Assembly (NCBI GenBank): GCA_947577065.1 | Contig: CANPTT010000021.1 | Location: forward strand, 1-37,632 | Length of the DNA stretch: 37,632 bases | Source of the DNA: an uncultured Pseudoflavonifractor sp. | Lineage (GTDB): Bacteria; Bacillota; Clostridia; Oscillospirales; Oscillospiraceae | Reading direction: 5' to 3' | Shown: piece by piece, positions 25,481 to 35,290 of the stretch | Position numbering within the stretch: the stretch's first letter is position 1 | Layout of the letters: each line of letters begins with the position of its first letter | Position numbers and translations under genes: made by a program | The notes under the pieces: model-generated | Told to the model about the DNA's origin: nothing | Database searches by the model: none | The model's input: the letters and a program-made list of their open reading frames with translations, nothing else

Positions 25481-28102
25481 TTACTTCCTCTCCGCCCGCT
25501 CAAAGGCGTCCTTTACCGGACTGTTGGGCAGGCGCATATTGGTCTTTTTCAAAATGGCCGCGATCTCCCCCTGGGCCTGCTCCACCTCGGCCCGCAGGTC
25601 CTGGGCCGAAAGGCGCAGGGCCCCGTGGCCCAGGATGATGAACTGGACCGGGCCGTCGGAGGTGGCCACACAGACCCGGTTGTTCCCCTCCTTCTGGAGC
25701 CGGTAGCTGGCCTTTTCAATGTAGCTGTCCGCCGTCTCGGCCTCCTTGGTGTAAACGACGTGGATGTTGTGATATTTGCTCACCGAGCCGGTCCCCTGAG
25801 GGACCTTGTAGGCGTCAAAAACCAGGATCACCCGGTTTTTGCGAAACCCCTGATAGTTGCTCAGAATATCAGCCAAAGTCTTCCGGGCAGCGGACAGATC
25901 CTCCCGGGCCAGGGCCTTGAGCTCCTCCCAGGCGAAGATCATGTTGTAGCCGTCCACCAGCAAATACTCCGGGCCGCTGGGGGCAGGCGGGATGGTGCGG
26001 GGAGCGTCGGAAAGACTGGTACGTCTGGGCTTAGGGGGCGGTTCAAAGGCCCGGGGCTTAACAGCTCCGTAGGTCTTTTCAAAGATGGCCTTCAACTCCC
26101 TGTCCTCCTCCAGGCTGCCGGAGATGGCGGCCCTTCGGGGAGCAGGCTTTTCTGGTTCAGCGGGGGCGGGCTTTTCGGTCAGTGAGATGGACAGGTGCAT
26201 ATGGTTTTCCACCTCATCCCAGGGCACATAATAGCCCGCCCCGTGGGCACAGAAGATGGAGCCGGTGGGGTTTTCGGTATCTCCATCGGGGTCATAGGAG
26301 GACCGGGCCACAATGGTCTCCTGGTCCGGGCAGGGGCGGTAGGGACCGGGAAGGCAGGTCAATCTGCCCCGGCCCTTCGTGTAGGCCGCCACCTCAGCGG
26401 CATAGTCCCGAAGCTGAGAGACAGGGCCGCCGCCTGTCAGGACCACCTCCCCGCCCACAGTCTCCGGGGCGTCCGTCTCTCCGCCCATGCGCTGAAGGTC
26501 CGCCAGGGCATGGCCCAAATTGGCCTGGGGCAGCTCCAGCCGGAAGGAATACCAGGGCTCCAGCAGAACGCTTTTCGCCTTGCGGAGTCCCTGTCGAACG
26601 GCCCGGTAGGTGGCCTGACGAAAGTCCCCTCCCTCGGTGTGCTTCTCGTGGGCCCGGCCCGCCACCAGCGTCAGCTTCATATCGGTGATGGGGGACCCGG
26701 TCAGCACGCCGCGGTGGGGCTTTTCCGCCAGATGGGTCAGGATGAGCCGCTGCCAGTTCCGGTCCAGCACGTCCTCCGAGCAGATGGCGTCAAACTGGAG
26801 ACCGCTGCCAGGGGGCAGAGGCTCCAGCAGGACATGGACCTCGGCATAGTGGCGAAGGGGCTCAAAGTGGCCCACCCCCTCCACAGGGGCGGCGATGGTC
26901 TCGGCATAGACGATGTTTCCGGGGCCGAAGTCCACCGCAAGGCCAAAACGGTCTAAAATAAGCCGCTTCAAAATCTCCGCCTGGACCTGCCCCATGAGCC
27001 GGAGATGGATCTCCCCCAACTCCTCGTTCCATTCCAGATGGAGCCGGGGATCCTCCTCCTCCAGAAGCCGCAGCTTGGGAAGAACGGCGTGGGGGTCGGC
27101 CCCCTCGGGCAGGATCAGCTGATAGGCCAGGGCGGGCTCCAAAGCGGGCGGAGCCCATGGCCCCTCCGCCCCAAGGGGCTGCCCGGGGCAGGTGGAGGAA
27201 AGCCCGGTGACAGCGCACACCGTCCCCGCCGGAGCCTCCTCCACAGGGGTAAATTTGGCCCCGGAATAGATGCGGATCTGGTCCACCTTCTCCGTTCCAT
27301 CCCCAGTGGGCAGGACAGAGCGGACCCGGAGGGCGCCCCCCGTGATCTTCATGTGAGAGAGCCTGCCCCCCTGTGGATCCCGGGATATTTTAAAAACCCG
27401 GGCGGCAAACTCCTTTCCCCACCGGGGCCGGGGAGCAAAGCGGGAAAGGGCACGCAGAAGTTCATCCACCCCCTCCACCTTCAACGCCGAGCCAAACAGG
27501 CAGGGAAAGAGCTCTCTCTGCCCGATCAGGCGGCGGAGTGTGTCGTCGGATAGACTCTCCGCCGCCATATATTCCTCCAAGGCCCCCTCATCCCCCAGGG
27601 CCGCCTCCTCCCAAAAGGGGGACGTACCGATGGTCGTCCAGTCCAGAACGGTAGGGGAGAGGGCGGCGCGGAGCTTTTCCAGCAGGGCGGCCCGGTCCGT
27701 TCCCGGCTGGTCCATCTTATTGAGAAAAAGGAAGGTGGGTACGCCATGGCGCTCCAGCAGCTTCCACAGCGTCAAGGTATGGCCCTGGGGCCCGTCAGGG
27801 CCGGAGATGACCAGAATGGCGCAGTCCAAAACGCACAAGGTACGCTCGGCCTCGGCGGAAAAGTCCACATGGCCGGGGGTATCCAAAAGGGTCAGCTCCA
27901 CATCCGGGAGGGGCAGGACGGCCTGCTTGGAGAAAATGGTGATGCCCCGCTCCCGCTCCAGAGCGTCGGTGTCCAGAAAGGCGTCGGCGTGGTCCACCCG
28001 CCCCAGTCTGCGAAGGGCTCCCCCCCGGTAAAGGAGGGCTTCCGACAAGGTGGTCTTTCCCGCGTCCACATGGGCCAGAATGCCAACAGTGAGCTTGTCC
28101 AT
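25481..28102 (-). CDS. TetM/EF-G-like ribosomal GTPase fused to a YacP/Rae1-type NYN ribonuclease domain
   Basis: An 873-residue protein from ATG 28102 (GGAGG eight bases upstream). Residues 1 to about 640 follow the TetM/EF-G plan: G1 AHVDAGKTT (Lys16), RGITI, DTPGHVDF (Asp74), NKMD (128-131), SALKVEG, then domains II-V including SPITDMKLTLVAGRAHEKHTE and a LLEPWYSFRLELPQANLG stretch like ribosomal protection proteins. A Pro-rich linker (about 640-708) leads to an NYN domain (about 710-873) with acidic residues Asp717 (VDGYNM), Asp763 (VFDAYK), Asp792 (TADSYIE) and Asp816 (ATSDG). B. subtilis YacP/Rae1 cuts mRNA in the ribosomal A site, and EF-G/TetM bind the same site. The fusion therefore suggests a GTPase-delivered A-site ribonuclease or rescue factor. 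It could also confer tetracycline protection; that is unproven. Confidence 0.92.
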   Translation of the reverse strand: MDKLTVGILAHVDAGKTTLSEALLYRGGALRRLGRVDHADAFLDTDALERERGITIFSKQAVLPLPDVELTLLDTPGHVDFSAEAERTLCVLDCAILVISGPDGPQGHTLTLWKLLERHGVPTFLFLNKMDQPGTDRAALLEKLRAALSPTVLDWTTIGTSPFWEEAALGDEGALEEYMAAESLSDDTLRRLIGQRELFPCLFGSALKVEGVDELLRALSRFAPRPRWGKEFAARVFKISRDPQGGRLSHMKITGGALRVRSVLPTGDGTEKVDQIRIYSGAKFTPVEEAPAGTVCAVTGLSSTCPGQPLGAEGPWAPPALEPALAYQLILPEGADPHAVLPKLRLLEEEDPRLHLEWNEELGEIHLRLMGQVQAEILKRLILDRFGLAVDFGPGNIVYAETIAAPVEGVGHFEPLRHYAEVHVLLEPLPPGSGLQFDAICSEDVLDRNWQRLILTHLAEKPHRGVLTGSPITDMKLTLVAGRAHEKHTEGGDFRQATYRAVRQGLRKAKSVLLEPWYSFRLELPQANLGHALADLQRMGGETDAPETVGGEVVLTGGGPVSQLRDYAAEVAAYTKGRGRLTCLPGPYRPCPDQETIVARSSYDPDGDTENPTGSIFCAHGAGYYVPWDEVENHMHLSISLTEKPAPAEPEKPAPRRAAISGSLEEDRELKAIFEKTYGAVKPRAFEPPPKPRRTSLSDAPRTIPPAPSGPEYLLVDGYNMIFAWEELKALAREDLSAARKTLADILSNYQGFRKNRVILVFDAYKVPQGTGSVSKYHNIHVVYTKEAETADSYIEKASYRLQKEGNNRVCVATSDGPVQFIILGHGALRLSAQDLRAEVEQAQGEIAAILKKTNMRLPNSPVKDAFERAERK

Positions 28103-28171
28103 AGGGGGAGCCTCCTTTCCGGCAGAATCGTTTTTACAATTATACCACAAAGGGGCGGAGAGTCACAAGGG

Positions 28172-29245: not shown

Positions 29246-30016
29246 TTATCTTGTCCCTTTGTCCCTTTGCCTTTCCGCTCGCTCGATCTGCTTTGCCCAG
29301 GTTTTTTCTGTCTGCGCCCGTAGAAAGGTCCGCAGCGGCTCCAGCTCCTGCCGGGTGTCCCATGCCTCCAGCGCCTCGTAATATCTCCGCCGGTCCTCCT
29401 CGTGGATGATGATAGGGGGATGGCCGTGGAGAACCAGCAGATAGTTCATCGTCAACCTGCCCACTCTGCCGTTTCCGTCCGCGAAAGGATGGATGTTCTC
29501 AAACTTGGCGTGGAAGTATGCCGCAGCCGTCAGAACGTCTTTGGGATCAATGCCCCTCACTTCCTCCAGCAGCTCCGCCATTTCCACCCCCACATCCTCC
29601 GGGGCGGCGCCCACTTCCTCCCTGCCCGTCACATAGTCGTGGCGCTTGTACTCGCCGGGGCGCTCCCCAAGCTGCCAACGGCGCGAGTCGTAGGTTCCGT
29701 GGGTCAACTGGAGCTGAAATTCACGAATCAAAGCTTCGTCCAAGGGGCGTCTGTCCCGAAAGGCCAAAAGAAACAGCTCATTGGCCTCCTTGGCATTGCG
29801 GATCTCAAAGAGGGTCCGCAGGTCCCCGGTATAGGAGGTAACGCCGTCATGCTCAAAGACCTCTCTGGTGTCGTGATAGGTGATCTTCTCGTTTTCGATT
29901 TTCCCGGAGTGGTAAGCAAAGGCGATACTGTGGCCGTTCAGGGCTTCGGCCAGTTCCGCATCTGTCTGTGGTTTTTTGTGCCGCCACAATTCCAGCGCCC
30001 TCTCATAATTGTTCAT
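29246..30016 (-). CDS. Fic-family AMP-transferase with N-terminal inhibitory helix
   Basis: A 256-residue protein from ATG 30016 (GGAGG upstream). The active site motif is HPFADGNGRVGR, with catalytic His176. A motif of the S/TxxxE(G/N) type, SGKIEN (Ser37, Glu41, Asn42), lies near the N-terminus. In class II Fic proteins this helix blocks ATP binding and keeps the enzyme off. Fic enzymes transfer AMP (or another nucleotide moiety) from a nucleotide to Ser/Thr/Tyr of a target protein. No separate antitoxin gene of the VbhA/PhD type is adjacent, in line with intramolecular control. The target is unknown. It lies among small regulators in an accessory patch. Confidence 0.93.
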   Translation of the reverse strand: MNNYERALELWRHKKPQTDAELAEALNGHSIAFAYHSGKIENEKITYHDTREVFEHDGVTSYTGDLRTLFEIRNAKEANELFLLAFRDRRPLDEALIREFQLQLTHGTYDSRRWQLGERPGEYKRHDYVTGREEVGAAPEDVGVEMAELLEEVRGIDPKDVLTAAAYFHAKFENIHPFADGNGRVGRLTMNYLLVLHGHPPIIIHEEDRRRYYEALEAWDTRQELEPLRTFLRAQTEKTWAKQIERAERQRDKGTR

Positions 30017-30112
30017 GGAAAATCCTCCTACGTTCGGCAAGAGGTATTATACCACAAATCCGAAGCCTTGCGGAAAGAAATTTGCGGTGCTCAAGCGGAA
30101 TGAGGAGAATTG

Positions 30113-31317: not shown

Positions 31318-33459
31318 TTACTTCTTCAGTCCGGGATTGTTCTCCATCTCCCGCAGAGCGTCCTTATAGGACAGGTTCACCCGGCCCTTCTCGTCGATCT
31401 CGGTGACCTTCACCCAGATCATATCGCCGATGTTCACCACATCCTCCACCTTCTCCACCCGGCGCTCAGCCAGCTTGGAGATGTGGACCATCCCGTCCTT
31501 GCCGGGGGCCAGCTCCACAAAGGCGCCGAAGGCCATGATCCGGACCACCTTGCCGTAGTAAAGCTGTCCCACCTCAGGGACGAAGACGATGGTCTCGATC
31601 ATCTTCTTGGCAATGTCGCACTTCTCAGCGTCGGGAGAGGCGATGTGGATGGTTCCGTCCTCCTCGATATCGATCTGGGCGCCCGACTCGGCGGTGATCT
31701 TCTGGATCACGCTGCCGCCCTTACCGATGACGTCCCGGATATTGTCCACGTTGATCTTCATGGTCAGCATCTTGGGGGCGTAACGGCTCACCTCGGGACG
31801 GGGCTTGTCGATGCAGGGGAGCATGATCTCGTCCAGGATGGCGTACCGGGCGTCACGGGTGATGTCCAGGGCCTCCTTGATGATGGCGTGGGAAAGACCG
31901 TCGTTCTTGATATCCATCTGGATGGCGGTGATGCCCGCCTTGGTGCCGGCCACCTTGAAGTCCATCTCCCCGTGGAAGTCCTCCACGCCCTGGATGTCGA
32001 TGAAGGTGGTGAAGCCGCCGTCGTCGTCCTGGATGAGGCCGCAGGAGATGCCGGCCACAGGGGCCTTGATGGGCACGCCCGCGTCCATGAGGGCCAGGGT
32101 GGAGCCGCAGATGGAGCCCTGAGAGGTGGAGCCGTTGGAGCTCAGCACCTCAGAGACCACCCGGATGGCGTAGGGGAACTCCTCCTCGCTGGGGATGACC
32201 GGCTCCAGCGCCCGCTCGGCCAGGGCGCCGTGGCCCTTCTCCCGGCGGTTGGTGGACCGGGCGGCCCGGGCCTCGCCCACGGAGTAGGAGGGGAAGTTGT
32301 AGTGGTGCATGTACCGCCGCTCCTCCTCCTCCCAGATGGTGTCCAGCTTCTGAGAGGCAGCCAGGGTGTTCAGGGTACAGACGGAGAGGACCTGGGTCTG
32401 GCCCCGGGTAAAGAGACCGGAGCCGTGGACCCGGGGCAGAACGCCCACCTCGGCGCCCAGGGGCCGGATCTCGTTCTTGGCCCGGCCGTCCACCCGGTGG
32501 CCCTCCAGGAGCCACTGCTTGACGATCTTCTTCTGGAACTTGTAGGTGATCTCCTCCAGGAACTGATCCATGTCGGGGTGATCCTCCAGGTACTTCTCGT
32601 GCCACTTCTCGATCATGGCGTTCCAGCGCTCTTCCCGGACGTTCTTGTCGTCGGTGTCCATGGCGGCCTTGGCCTCGTCCATAAAGTCGGCGACGATCTT
32701 GTCAAAGAGCTCCTGGTCGAAGGCGGCGTGATCGTAGGTCATCTTCTCCCTGCCGATCTCGGAGACCATGGTGTTGATCAGGCTGACCTGCTTCTGGATC
32801 TCCTCATGGGCCTTCAGGATGGCGTCATACATGATGTCGTCGGGCAGCTCCTTGGCCCCGGCCTCGATCATAATGACCTTCTGGGCGGTGGCGGCCACGG
32901 TCAGATCCAGCTGGGAGGCATGCTTTTCCTCCTGGGTGGGGTTATAGACGATCTTCCCGTCCACATAGCCCATCTCCAGGCAGCCGATGGGCCCGGCCCA
33001 GGGGATGTTGGAGACGGCGAGGCAGGCGGACACGCCGATCATGGCGGTGACCTCGGGCGAGCAGTCCCGGTCCACGCTCATGACGGTGCAGGTGCATACC
33101 ACGTCGTTGCGGAAATCATAGGGGAACAGGGGCCGAATGGACCGGTCAATGACACGGCTGGCCAGCACGGCGGGCAGGGAGGGCTGCCCCTCCCGGCGCA
33201 TGAAGGAGCCGGGGATCCGGCCCACGGCGTACAGCTTCTCCTCAAAGTCCACGCTGAGGGGGAAGAAGTCGATGCCGTCCCGGGGACGGGGGGAGCAGGT
33301 GACGGCCACCAGGACGGTGGTCTCGCCGTAGGTCACCATAGCGGAAGCGGTAGCCAGTTCGGCCACCTTGCCCATGTTGATCTTCAGGGGGCGGCCGCAC
33401 AGGTCCATGGACCAAGTCTTCTCATTGGGGAACTGTTTGCGGGTGATCACAGTCGACAT
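31318..33459 (-). CDS. pnp: Polynucleotide phosphorylase (PNPase)
   Basis: A 713-residue protein from ATG 33459, with AAAGGAGG upstream. Two RNase PH domains are separated by a helical domain. The second has DIQGVEDFHGEMDFKVAGT, the conserved acidic catalytic region. A KH domain follows at about 555-615 (VIGKGGSVIQKITAESGAQIDI), then an S1 domain at about 620-695 (GKVVRIMAFGAFVELAPGKDGMVHIS). PNPase degrades RNA 3'-5' with phosphate and can add tails. It lies downstream of rpsO, the widespread arrangement, but a terminator and a structured leader separate them. A longer in-frame extension covers the leader repeat and is not coding. Confidence 0.97.
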   Translation of the reverse strand: MSTVITRKQFPNEKTWSMDLCGRPLKINMGKVAELATASAMVTYGETTVLVAVTCSPRPRDGIDFFPLSVDFEEKLYAVGRIPGSFMRREGQPSLPAVLASRVIDRSIRPLFPYDFRNDVVCTCTVMSVDRDCSPEVTAMIGVSACLAVSNIPWAGPIGCLEMGYVDGKIVYNPTQEEKHASQLDLTVAATAQKVIMIEAGAKELPDDIMYDAILKAHEEIQKQVSLINTMVSEIGREKMTYDHAAFDQELFDKIVADFMDEAKAAMDTDDKNVREERWNAMIEKWHEKYLEDHPDMDQFLEEITYKFQKKIVKQWLLEGHRVDGRAKNEIRPLGAEVGVLPRVHGSGLFTRGQTQVLSVCTLNTLAASQKLDTIWEEEERRYMHHYNFPSYSVGEARAARSTNRREKGHGALAERALEPVIPSEEEFPYAIRVVSEVLSSNGSTSQGSICGSTLALMDAGVPIKAPVAGISCGLIQDDDGGFTTFIDIQGVEDFHGEMDFKVAGTKAGITAIQMDIKNDGLSHAIIKEALDITRDARYAILDEIMLPCIDKPRPEVSRYAPKMLTMKINVDNIRDVIGKGGSVIQKITAESGAQIDIEEDGTIHIASPDAEKCDIAKKMIETIVFVPEVGQLYYGKVVRIMAFGAFVELAPGKDGMVHISKLAERRVEKVEDVVNIGDMIWVKVTEIDEKGRVNLSYKDALREMENNPGLKK

Positions 33460-33496
33460 TGTTTTGTCCTCCTTTGTTTTCCCCCGCCATTCTCTG

Positions 33497-33662
33497 GATT
33501 CAGCACTTGGATTTGGGTCCGAATGGGGATGGCCGCAAAGGGAAGCCAGGGGGATGGCTCGTGGCACGGCCGGGGGAGGCCGAGACCACAATTTACGGCT
33601 TAGGGAGCCTCTGGGGGAAGAGGCGAAGGGGGGTATTCGGACCCAAATCCAACTGCTAAATC
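33497..33662 (-). ncRNA. Structured leader / candidate regulatory RNA before pnp
   Basis: Arms 33497-33524 and 33635-33662 pair over 28 bases with two mismatches, one of them a G-U in one strand. They enclose 110 bases holding three hairpins: AGCCA/TGGCT (33544-33559), CGGCC/GGCCG (33567-33582, with an outer GTGG/CCAC) and GCCTCT/AGAGGC (33607-33624). All three have the loop GGGGGA on the plus strand, UCCCCC in the rpsO-pnp RNA sense. No gene fits here. A long stem in the pnp leader recalls the E. coli RNase III site used for PNPase autocontrol; repeated UCCCCC loops recall the C-rich loops of Staphylococcus sRNAs that pair with Shine-Dalgarno sites. Both roles are inference. Confidence 0.65.
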
Positions 33663-33693
33663 AGGACGCGGAGGGCAGATTTTGGGGGTTCAT

Positions 33694-33746
33694 AAAATAG
33701 AAGCCAGGGCAGCGGGGGTCTTTCCCGCGCTGCCCCGGCCTATTTT
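33694..33746 (-). terminator. Terminator of rpsO
   Basis: On the minus strand AAAATAGGCCGGGGCAGCGCGGG pairs with a near-complement ending CTATTTT. The hairpin starts three bases after the rpsO stop codon (arms about 33724-33746 and 33694-33717). Part of the transcription would pass into pnp. Confidence 0.85.
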
Positions 33747-33748
33747 TC

Positions 33749-34015
33749 TTACTTTCGGATGCCCAGCTTGGCGATAATGGCGCGGTATCGCTCAATATCC
33801 TTGCGCATCAGGTAGTCCAGCAGCTTGCGGCGCTTACCGATCATCTTGTAAAGGCCCCGGCGGCTGTGGTTGTCATGGATGTGCACCCGCAGGTGCTCGG
33901 TGAGCTCGTTGATGCGCTTGGTGAGAATGGCGATCTGCACCTCGGGGGAGCCGGTGTCGGTCTCATGGGTGCGGTTGGCCTCGATCACGGCTGTCTTTTC
34001 GTCCTTACGGATCAT
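33749..34015 (-). CDS. rpsO: Ribosomal protein S15
   Basis: An 88-residue protein with the full S15 signature: [49 protein letters not shown], ending [13 protein letters not shown]15 binds 16S rRNA helices 20-22 and leads assembly of the small-subunit platform. The length fits exactly. AAAGGTGG precedes the ATG. S15 genes are often autoregulated by their leader RNA; the 110-base leader here contains two mutually exclusive hairpins. Confidence 0.98.
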
Positions 34016-34074
34016 GGTTGTTTTCCACCTTTCATTGATTCTGTCCTACCAGCCGGGGGATGGGGGGATGGAGC

Positions 34075-34095
34075 CCTCTGACACAGAGGTGTGTC
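34075..34095 (-). promoter_or_regulatory. Alternative hairpins in the rpsO leader
   Basis: CCTCTG-ACA-CAGAGG (34075-34089) and GACACA-GAGG-TGTGTC (34080-34095) overlap, so only one can form at a time. They lie between the rpsO promoter and start codon. A role in S15 autocontrol is possible but unproven. Confidence 0.35.
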
Positions 34096-34131
34096 CCGTC
34101 TCTAAGCCGATGGACGGTTACGTGCCCAGAT

Positions 34132-34160
34132 ACTATACCACAATTTTTCCCTGTTGTAAA
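34132..34160 (-). promoter_or_regulatory. Promoter of rpsO
   Basis: The minus strand has TTTACA (34160-34155) and TATAGT (34137-34132) with 17 bases between them, about 115 bases before rpsO. Confidence 0.88.
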
Positions 34161-34186
34161 GAAAATTATTGGCTTTTCCCTTCCTT

Positions 34187-35290
34187 TTACGGCTCTCCGG
34201 CGCTCTCTCCCTCCGGCTGCCCCGGTCCCCCCTCCCAGCGGTAGCCCGCCTCAAAAAGCTCCTGGGCGGTGTAGATGGCCCCTGTGCCCTCGGAGGGATC
34301 CAGGTAGAGCGTCTCCCCCGGCAGGCCCAGGTCGATCCAAAAGCGGGGGGCGTCCCGCAGCGTCCCCTCCACCACCTGACCGCCCGAGAGCAGCGCGTAG
34401 GCCAGGGCCATGCCCTCGTCGTTGGCCACCCCGGCCACCAGGGCGTCGTAGGCGGTGCTCCCCCCGTCGGGGGCATAGACTGCCTCCGCCCACAAGGCGG
34501 AGATGTTCCTTTGGGCCCGCTCCTCCGGGGTCTCCTTTTCCGTTGTGACGGGCTGAAAGCCCCCCTCCGCGGCCAGCTCCCTGCCCTTGTCGCTCAGCGC
34601 CTCGCTCTTGCGGCGCAGCTCCTCGGCGCTCTCGGGGTAGGTGAGTAAAATTTCCACCACCCTCTCCCGCCCGGAATCGGGGTACAGGACGATCTCCGCC
34701 TCCGGACAGCCCAGGGCGGCGGCAGGCGTATCGTAATAGGCCTGGCGGATCAGCTGGGCGATGGACTGCTCATCCTCGGAAAAATAAGCCACCCGAAGGA
34801 CCACCTCGCCCGTAAATTGGGCCAGGGCCTGCCGCAGCTCGGTACGGATGGCCCCGGTCCCCGTGACCCGCACCATGGAGCGTACCTGCTCCTGGGTCCG
34901 GCGGTAGTGGATATCCAGGGTCGCCTGATAATAGGACACCACACGGGTATACTCATGCTTGATATAGTCCACACAGTAGGCCCCCAGAGGATCCTCAGCC
35001 GTCACCTCCAGGCAGGCCGCCGTCAGGTCGTTTTCCACCACCCCGGCGTAATCATGGAGCTGGATGATCCCCTCCTCCGCCCCCTCGCTCACCAGATAGA
35101 GCACGGCGGACACCAACTCCCGATAGTTCTCCACCCGGAGAATAGAGGAGTCCTCGGCGGTGGTGGGCCGGTCCACATGGGCCGTGGAGGAGGTATAGGA
35201 GCGCTCCAGCATGGAGGCGCAGCCCGGCACAGTAAGCAGCAGGCCAAGGGCAAGCCCCAGCGCCGTCATTCGGTTTTTCGTGGCGGACAC
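34187..35290 (-). CDS. Predicted lipoprotein, hypothetical
   Basis: A 367-residue protein with an N-terminal signal ending in VPGC, a plausible lipobox, so it is probably lipid-anchored outside the membrane. The body is acidic with long helices (ILRVENYRELVSAVLYLVSEGAEEG, near residue 50) and a C-terminal segment with ANDEGMALAYALLSGGQVVEGT and WIDLGLPGETLYLDPSEG, which vaguely recalls a transglutaminase-like fold without its cysteine. The start is unsettled: GTG 35290 has AAGGGG too close, and ATG 35269 (MTALGLALG) has no strong site. It follows the LUD gene by 35 bases. I cannot assign a function. Confidence 0.75.
   Translation of the reverse strand: MSATKNRMTALGLALGLLLTVPGCASMLERSYTSSTAHVDRPTTAEDSSILRVENYRELVSAVLYLVSEGAEEGIIQLHDYAGVVENDLTAACLEVTAEDPLGAYCVDYIKHEYTRVVSYYQATLDIHYRRTQEQVRSMVRVTGTGAIRTELRQALAQFTGEVVLRVAYFSEDEQSIAQLIRQAYYDTPAAALGCPEAEIVLYPDSGRERVVEILLTYPESAEELRRKSEALSDKGRELAAEGGFQPVTTEKETPEERAQRNISALWAEAVYAPDGGSTAYDALVAGVANDEGMALAYALLSGGQVVEGTLRDAPRFWIDLGLPGETLYLDPSEGTGAIYTAQELFEAGYRWEGGPGQPEGESAGEP

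Follow-up and report, generated by a model that had tools for sequence, protein, structure and literature searches.

The gap between rpsO and pnp in a 37,632-nucleotide (nt) stretch of DNA from an uncultured Pseudoflavonifractor sp. (contig CANPTT010000021.1; the whole stretch is called the window, and positions are counted from its first letter) contains a long stem whose core was found at the same place in many other gut Clostridia. We propose that the element is a cis-acting leader of pnp, present in Oscillospirales and some other Clostridia, which would be cut by RNase III and would place PNPase under feedback control, and we put the probability of this reading at roughly 57%. The sequences show directly the location of the element, its conservation, its covarying structure, a strand bias, and a tip that is exchanged between species; transcription as one leader, cleavage, the action of PNPase, feedback and the role of the C-loops are predicted.

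A conserved stem between rpsO and pnp

In the window, rpsO and pnp both lie on the minus strand, as judged from calls of open reading frames (ORFs) and from Pfam. The gap between them contains two 28-nt arms that are 93% complementary and have 110 nt between them. The first-pass annotation, made from the letters of the window, had pointed to this inverted repeat and to three hairpins with identical loops inside it, and these features are real: in the sense RNA the hairpins read GCCUCU-UCCCCC-AGAGGC, CGGCC-UCCCCC-GGCCG and GAGCCA-UCCCCC-UGGCUU, and the sense strand folded at -107.1 kcal/mol, compared to -66.3 +/- 4.8 in 200 shuffles (z = -8.5, with none of the 200 as low). One of the two non-matching positions in the arms, 33658 with 33501, pairs as G.U in the sense strand, and the other, 33653 with 33506, is a G.G mismatch which is conserved among relatives. 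Below the arms, the fold also had an outer stem; its tip was multibranched, and two additional unpaired C-runs flanked the arms. The first-pass annotation had mentioned none of these.

We searched for pnp in related genomes using the first 120 residues of the protein, and found it in 14 of 16 genomes of the genus and in 179 of 200 genomes of the family. Forty loci were then fetched by PNPase similarity, with no sequence pattern used (the 14 from the genus, with the 26 best from the rest of the family). In all 40 loci rpsO was directly upstream of pnp, and all 40 gaps contained the core UUAGCAGUU...AAGUGCUAA. This stem, in which a single purine-purine mismatch occurs, follows on the pnp strand the pattern AGCA[AG]TTG[AG]A ... 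T[TC]CAA[AG]TGCT. This conserved core corresponds to the ends of the 28-nt arms. The mismatch was G.G in 32 gaps, G.A in five and A.G in three, and the 3' core arm ended 36-60 nt ahead of the pnp start. The apex between the core arms measured 25-43 nt in 31 of the gaps and 71-189 nt in the other nine. With 30 nt added on each side of the core, the hairpins had at least 32 pairs (median 40), which is the size of an RNase III substrate. A larger set of 183 elements (GG 169, GA 9, AG 5) was selected by a pattern in which most of the core was fixed and only purines were allowed at the mismatch. The invariance of the core in that set, and in alignment A4 below, is therefore largely built in, and the unselected evidence is that of the 40 gaps.

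Covariation and the coding strand

A check of homologous gaps for covariation, suggested at the outset, gave a strongly positive result. Alignment A2 contained 30 of the 31 short-apex sequences from the unselected gaps (L052 was dropped); nine of its 21 pairs changed on both sides, and 93.3% of cells paired, compared to 82.3% in shuffles. In alignment A4, made of 66 diverse sequences (65 distinct) in rows chosen by the core-fixing pattern, 13 of 21 pairs changed on both sides, and the covariation score was 0.424 against 0.125 +/- 0.010 in shuffles and never above 0.124 when the register was slid. A further alignment, A3, was left out as a source of models, having mixed both strands of the palindrome. 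Eight core pairs were invariant in A2 as they were, partly by construction, in A4; the adjacent pair, G-C, turned to A-U in nine rows of A4. The outer stem below the core coevolved without conservation of sequence. For 58 relatives, reduced from 170, the outer flanks paired with a mean of -20.7 kcal/mol with their own partners, compared to -12.9 (standard deviation 0.47) when partners were permuted and -11.7 when shuffled, and the relative's own 3' flank was the best of 58 partners in 12 cases and within the top 5% in 27.

On the pnp strand, 86 G.U pairs were counted against 46 A.C pairs. Such an excess would be expected if the pnp (minus) strand is the RNA, and together with synteny it favours the minus strand over the plus strand. 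On the plus strand the three loops of the window read GGGGGA, and the earlier suggestion that their GGA motifs could be CsrA sites depends on transcription of that strand, which the same two observations disfavour.

Distribution of the element

A covariance model, R1, matched 150 of 200 family genomes at E 0.01, 107 of 295 genomes of the order (the window's own family included) and, at E 0.001, 17 of 291 genomes of the class. A broader model, R2, matched 36 of the 291 class genomes at E 0.01, and 30 of these were checked at pnp. Two R2 matches in the class lay away from pnp (G601, locus L281; and G566, with the match on contig C29 and pnp on C11), one lay within the pnp upstream region on the opposite strand (G570), and three were left out of the pnp check (G604, G613 and G756). 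In the phylum, R2 matched six of 299 genomes, and only two matches were at pnp (L248 and L249), both from the window's own order. The remaining phylum matches, L250-L254, were weak and away from pnp, so we make no claim past the class.

An exact-pattern scan of GTDB species genomes found the element at no fewer than 119 places. Of the 119 listed, 117 were upstream of pnp and two were at contig ends beside rpsO; carriers among the matches listed include Flavonifractor plautii, Pseudoflavonifractor, Oscillibacter, Butyricicoccus, Agathobaculum and metagenome-assembled genomes of Oscillospiraceae. The listed pattern loci lay 22-183 nt from the extrapolated pnp start. A position upstream of pnp, on the same strand and within 400 nt, was found for 68 of 71 R1 loci, for those 117 pattern loci and for 27 of 35 R2 loci. 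The exceptions were contig ends with rpsO (L078, L164, L201), loci with no pnp (L250-L254, L281), and four loci (L122, L126, L274, L278) which the location expression missed, though a stem is visible ahead of pnp. Within the window's own genome (assembly of 2.0 Mb, 84.6% complete) the element is single-copy, save that its arms match each other. The search for further copies, another check that had been suggested, thus argues against a dispersed element.

To cover the class more widely, we took the regions ahead of pnp. Of the 114 class genomes bearing the gene, 107 contributed a region, and two of these regions were shortened by contig ends (L363, L382). Seven genomes were left out: G000, which is the window's own, and six R2 carriers (G103, G499, G517, G525, G533, G587). 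When a stem was defined loosely, by TAG...CTA with six inner pairs and no fewer than 10 of 13 positions paired, 34 of the 107 regions qualified, compared to 2-6 in five shuffles. On the reverse strand, too, 34 of 107 qualified; the palindrome voids that control, and only the shuffles count. A mismatch fell at positions 5-7 in 25 of the 34 loose matches, and six picks were out of register. Stems in the class were of a UUAGCAG type, a GUAGAAGGUAGAU/AUCUACAUCCUAC type and a UUAGCCAUUAGAU type, and in some carriers the mismatch place was paired (G-C in L282 and L305; U.G in L291, L300 and L310). Other Clostridia families had look-alike stems, UAG...UAGA / UCUA...CUA, in which a zone of mismatch falls at roughly the same position. 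One old operator may therefore be common to part of the class, which would give these stem types a common origin.

Three side observations belong here. A second sequence-conserved stem, GUAG...GUAGAUU / GAAUCUAC...CUAC, occurs in pnp leaders of other Clostridia families (L298, L302, L306-L308, L312, L326, L340, L345), and the two such loci that were scanned, L326 and L340, had no Rfam match. Locus L281, from a class relative and with no pnp, contains a paired palindrome, TTTAGCACTTAAATTCC...GGAATTTAAGTGCTA, which looks like the core minus its mismatch. In the pnp upstream region L329 (129-236, minus strand) there is a weak match, probably due to chance, to the Staphylococcus small RNA (sRNA) sau-5971 (29.2 bits; gathering score 90).

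The tip and its fillings

Three C-loop hairpins make up the tip in four of 14 congeneric gaps (L018, which is the window, L020, L022 and L025). All four tips share one fold, in which hairpin 1 is followed by a helix, P, that holds hairpins 2 and 3. Helix P is GCCGUAAA/UUUGCGGC in the window and CCGCGGA/UCCGCGG in L022, so that complementarity is kept while the sequence changes. The loops are three times UCCCCC in one species; UUCCCC, UUCCCC and CCCCCC in the second; UCCCC, UCCCCC and CCCCCC in the third; and UCCCCC, CCCCCU and CCCCCC in the fourth. CCCC was thus present in 12 of 12 loops while the stems changed, and three or more CCCC loops arose in only 2 (window), 1, 3 and 2 of 300 composition shuffles of the respective apices. 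Where they are present, therefore, the C-loops look selected. The first-pass annotation had taken the constant loop as a sign of selection; within these four species that view is upheld, whereas it is the arms, and not the C-loops, that are widely conserved. On an rpsO and pnp tree of the genus, the C-loop apex requires at least two changes, and either it is old and was then lost, or it has moved.

The tip of other congeners was mostly a short loop, with 71 nt in L019 and a different palindrome in L021. In L023 (genome G015) the tip was filled by a dispersed repeat of about 150 nt, which occurs at 25 places in G015 and has matches in seven of 16 congeneric genomes, none of them the window's own. 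If the tip is cut off, a dispersed repeat at this place is to be expected, and a tip that tolerates inserts fits its removal by RNase III. As a side observation made by eye, look-alikes of this repeat are present in the gaps of L020, L025, L027, L034 and L037, with long inserts in L034 and L037.

A model for the leader and its alternatives

In the model that we favour, transcription would run through the rpsO terminator into the leader, which would fold as one long hairpin, with a variable outer stem, the conserved inner stem UUAGCAGUU/AAGUGCUAA with its purine-purine mismatch, and a variable tip. The mismatch would set the position of the RNase III cut in the stem, and the tip would be discarded. 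PNPase, through its KH and S1 domains, would bind and digest the nicked duplex and leave the pnp mRNA open to decay, and excess PNPase would thereby lower its own synthesis. The tip would be free to vary, and the three-hairpin C-loop unit, found in some species of one genus, may be an extra dock for KH/S1 or an excised sRNA. The PNPase of the window has KH and S1 domains, and we infer that the autoregulation logic of E. coli and S. coelicolor applies here. A PNPase/RNase III autocontrol leader of a form different from that of E. coli had been one of two hypotheses offered for this region, and it is the best-supported reading, with its function predicted from the sequence comparisons.

Several results weigh against this reading. 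Neither R1 nor R2 gave the window's own copy any score, because its apex is long (136 nt), and its membership rests on the arms, the mismatch, the outer stem and the position. Fifty of the 200 family genomes had no R1 match, and when 20 R1-negative family gaps were inspected by eye, one had the canonical core round a large insert (L398), nine retained either a diverged stem or a 3' arm of the kind UUCAAGUGCUAA, UUCAAGUAC or UCAAGUGAUAA (L397, L399, L401, L405, L407, L408, L411, L412, L415), and ten had nothing similar. Strict patterns fitted only nine of 79 short class stretches, and position 7 was purine-purine in just 17 of the 34 loose matches. The probability that the Shine-Dalgarno (SD) sequence of the window is unpaired was 0.22-0.34 in three longer or different folds and 0.65 with other flanks. 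In those three folds the SD pairs with a CCCC, which makes direct translational control slightly more probable and the favoured reading less sure. Finally, a fixed stem sequence is not something that RNase III ordinarily requires. The conserved stem exceeds such needs, and a further sequence-specific binder may therefore exist.

The last two points bear on the strongest alternative, which we consider unlikely, though the least so of those below. Here, the stem would be the specific site of a putative protein, or of the KH/S1 domains of PNPase, whose effect on translation or elongation would be direct and would not involve RNase III. That eight core pairs are invariant in 40 pattern-free gaps while the rest covaries freely is what such a site would leave, and the partly paired SD of the window points the same way. 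We know of no binder of the core stem, however, and natural RNase III substrates include long near-perfect duplexes, which counts against this alternative. Among the 40 leaders, moreover, the SD follows the 3' core arm at a distance of 22-44 nt, and its mean unpaired probability is 0.54, with a value below 0.3 in only two, which indicates that the core hairpin alone does not cover it.

A somewhat less probable alternative, and a doubtful one, was the other hypothesis offered at the outset: RNase III would free an RNA of about 110 nt with three hairpins, whose UCCCCC loops would pair in trans with G-rich ribosome-binding sites in the manner of RsaE, so that the leader doubles as an sRNA gene. 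The 12 of 12 CCCC loops on changing stems, rare in shuffles (1-3 of 300 per species), would suit this, as would the retention of the arms and the multibranch fold, and UCCCC is, in passages of PMC9217828, a seed motif by which sRNAs of S. aureus pair with SD sites. On the other hand, of the 14 congeneric gaps just four have the tip, the match of UCCCCC to the usual GGAGG is imperfect, and a simple promoter scan of 33300-34300 gave no match inside the gap, its sole match being on the minus strand at 34160-34132, upstream of rpsO. A speculative extension, to which we attach as little weight, is that the pnp operator, read through a conserved stem with a mismatch, would be, class-wide in Clostridia, a cut-out cassette whose tip RNase III excises, and in one gut lineage the three-hairpin C-loop filling would act after excision as an sRNA or as a PNPase sponge or dock. 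If this were true, making PNPase mRNA would also make a regulator. The exchangeable tip, filled in one lineage by a conserved three-hairpin unit, offers a natural example of how a new small RNA could arise from a processing site.

It is very unlikely that the C-loops act in cis by pairing with the G-run of the outer stem (33481-33487), with the tip competing with the 5' C-run and the leader rearranging. GGGGGA, when 33480 is included, perfectly complements UCCCCC, and all four species with C-loops have GGGGA, but congeners retain the G-run both with and without C-loops, and four species are too few for a test of coevolution. A DNA element, such as a CIRCE-like HrcA operator or another palindromic repressor site, is more improbable still. 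AAGTGCTAA and TTAGCA resemble CIRCE, whose consensus we take to be TTAGCACTC-N9-GAGTGCTAA; the arms, however, are 25-189 nt apart and not 9, the left arm AGCA[AG]TT has G (37 of 40 gaps) or A (three) where the palindrome requires C, and a DNA site leaves unexplained the covariation of apical and outer stems with G.U pairs. Least credible is a mobile palindromic repeat that chances to precede pnp. The genus does have dispersed repeats, one of them in this very tip in G015, but the element has one place in its own genome and, among the listed pattern places, the 117 at pnp and the two contig ends beside rpsO account for all.

Features and neighbouring genes of the window

Table 1. Coordinates of the leader, its parts and the flanking genes.
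Feature	Position	Strand	Evidence
rpsO, ribosomal protein S15, gene upstream of pnp	33749-34015	-	ORF; Pfam PF00312, E 1.3e-36
Hairpin 3' of rpsO, probable rpsO terminator	33694-33747	-	inverted repeat, fold; absent from the list of a simple terminator scan
CCCC pairing with SD GG.GG in the lowest-energy fold	33684-33687	-	fold
Outer stem, 5' strand, partner 33481-33496	33662-33675	-	fold; flank coevolution across 58 reduced relatives
Long stem, 5' arm, full length	33635-33662	-	inverted repeat
5' core arm UUUAGCAGUUGGA, conserved; mismatch G at 33653	33648-33660	-	present in 40/40 gaps
Apical hairpin 1, loop UCCCCC 33613-33618	33607-33624	-	fold; C-loop kept in four species
Apical helix P, 5' strand GCCGUAAA, encloses hairpins 2 and 3	33592-33599	-	fold; complementary with different sequence in three relatives
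Apical hairpin 2, loop UCCCCC 33572-33577	33567-33582	-	fold; C-loop kept in four species
Apical hairpin 3, loop UCCCCC 33549-33554	33543-33560	-	fold; C-loop kept in four species
Apical helix P, 3' strand UUUGCGGC	33532-33539	-	fold; relatives
Long stem, 3' arm, full length	33497-33524	-	inverted repeat
3' core arm UCCAAGUGCUGAAUC, conserved; mismatch G at 33506	33497-33511	-	present in 40/40 gaps
Outer stem, 3' strand; G-run GCGGGGG 33481-33487 could also pair with a UCCCCC loop	33481-33496	-	fold
pnp SD, GGAGG	33468-33472	-	sequence
pnp, PNPase with KH and S1 domains	31318-33459	-	ORF; Pfam RNase_PH, KH_1, S1

Two other genes of the window were observed on the same strand. The ORF at 25481-28150 encodes an EF-G/TetM-like GTPase (GTP_EFTU, EFG_IV, EFG_C) with a C-terminal YacP-like NYN domain (PF05991, E 2.8e-48), that is, a translation factor fused to a putative RNase, and the ORF at 29246-30040 encodes a Fic/DOC family protein (PF02661, E 1.7e-19).

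Relation to known systems

A leader of this kind is already known from pnp of E. coli and Streptomyces and from Actino-pnp; the Clostridia leader matches neither the E. coli region nor, in the loci scanned, any Rfam family at gathering score. A scan of the window with Rfam 15 gave two tRNAs only and nothing at the leader, and lenient Rfam scans of the window and of relatives' loci gave chance matches only, below gathering scores. The leader appears undescribed in Rfam 15 and in the open-access titles, abstract openings and passages that were searched, although it could figure in a subscription paper or in the 2017 candidate-RNA survey.

Actino-pnp (RF01688) presumably lies ahead of pnp, as its name implies. 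It is given as a conserved RNA of Actinomycetales and marked as cis-regulatory in passages of PMC2864571. RF01688 had no match in the window or in 15 relatives' loci (six scanned at gathering score, nine up to E 5). A genome search with this family matched none of 118 genomes, and was uninformative, the controls being silent as well.

Two further systems are alike in part. Intervening sequences of 23S rRNA are excised by RNase III. They resemble the present element in a helix that tolerates foreign inserts (PMC4990558), but here the helix lies in an mRNA leader, from which excision of the tip is predicted. The UCCCC-motif RNAs of Staphylococcus (RsaE, RNAIII) have similar C-rich seed motifs (passages of PMC9217828); those are sRNAs, whereas here the motifs are inside a predicted mRNA leader.

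The closest likeness is to the rpsO-pnp hairpins of E. coli and S. coelicolor. According to passages of PMC10126417, PMC5872136, PMC8708148 and PMC4681348, RNase III cuts these hairpins in or next to an internal loop; the cut destabilises pnp mRNA and lowers expression, and PNPase joins the feedback. Repression of PNPase by RNase III is described as a conserved trait of S. pyogenes, B. burgdorferi and C. jejuni (in a passage of PMC8708148), and a passage of PMC10126417 has the KH/S1 domains taking part in PNPase autoregulation and PNPase activity rising 2-4 fold on loss of rnc in S. coelicolor. When folded here, the E. coli leader, like that of the window, formed a long hairpin with internal loops, in the same gap and ahead of the pnp SD. 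Its stem sequence differs, and R2 gave no match up to E 10 in E. coli NC_000913 3307000-3313500; cleavage and the action of PNPase are known in E. coli, whereas for the window they are predicted. The S. coelicolor hairpin, compared by description and not by sequence, has a [4/4] internal loop where the element described here has a single purine mismatch. Self-control of PNPase is the classic case of an RNA-decay enzyme tuning itself, as worked out in E. coli and Streptomyces; in Clostridia the leader is defined by sequence, and its mismatch predicts precisely where RNase III or PNPase would act.
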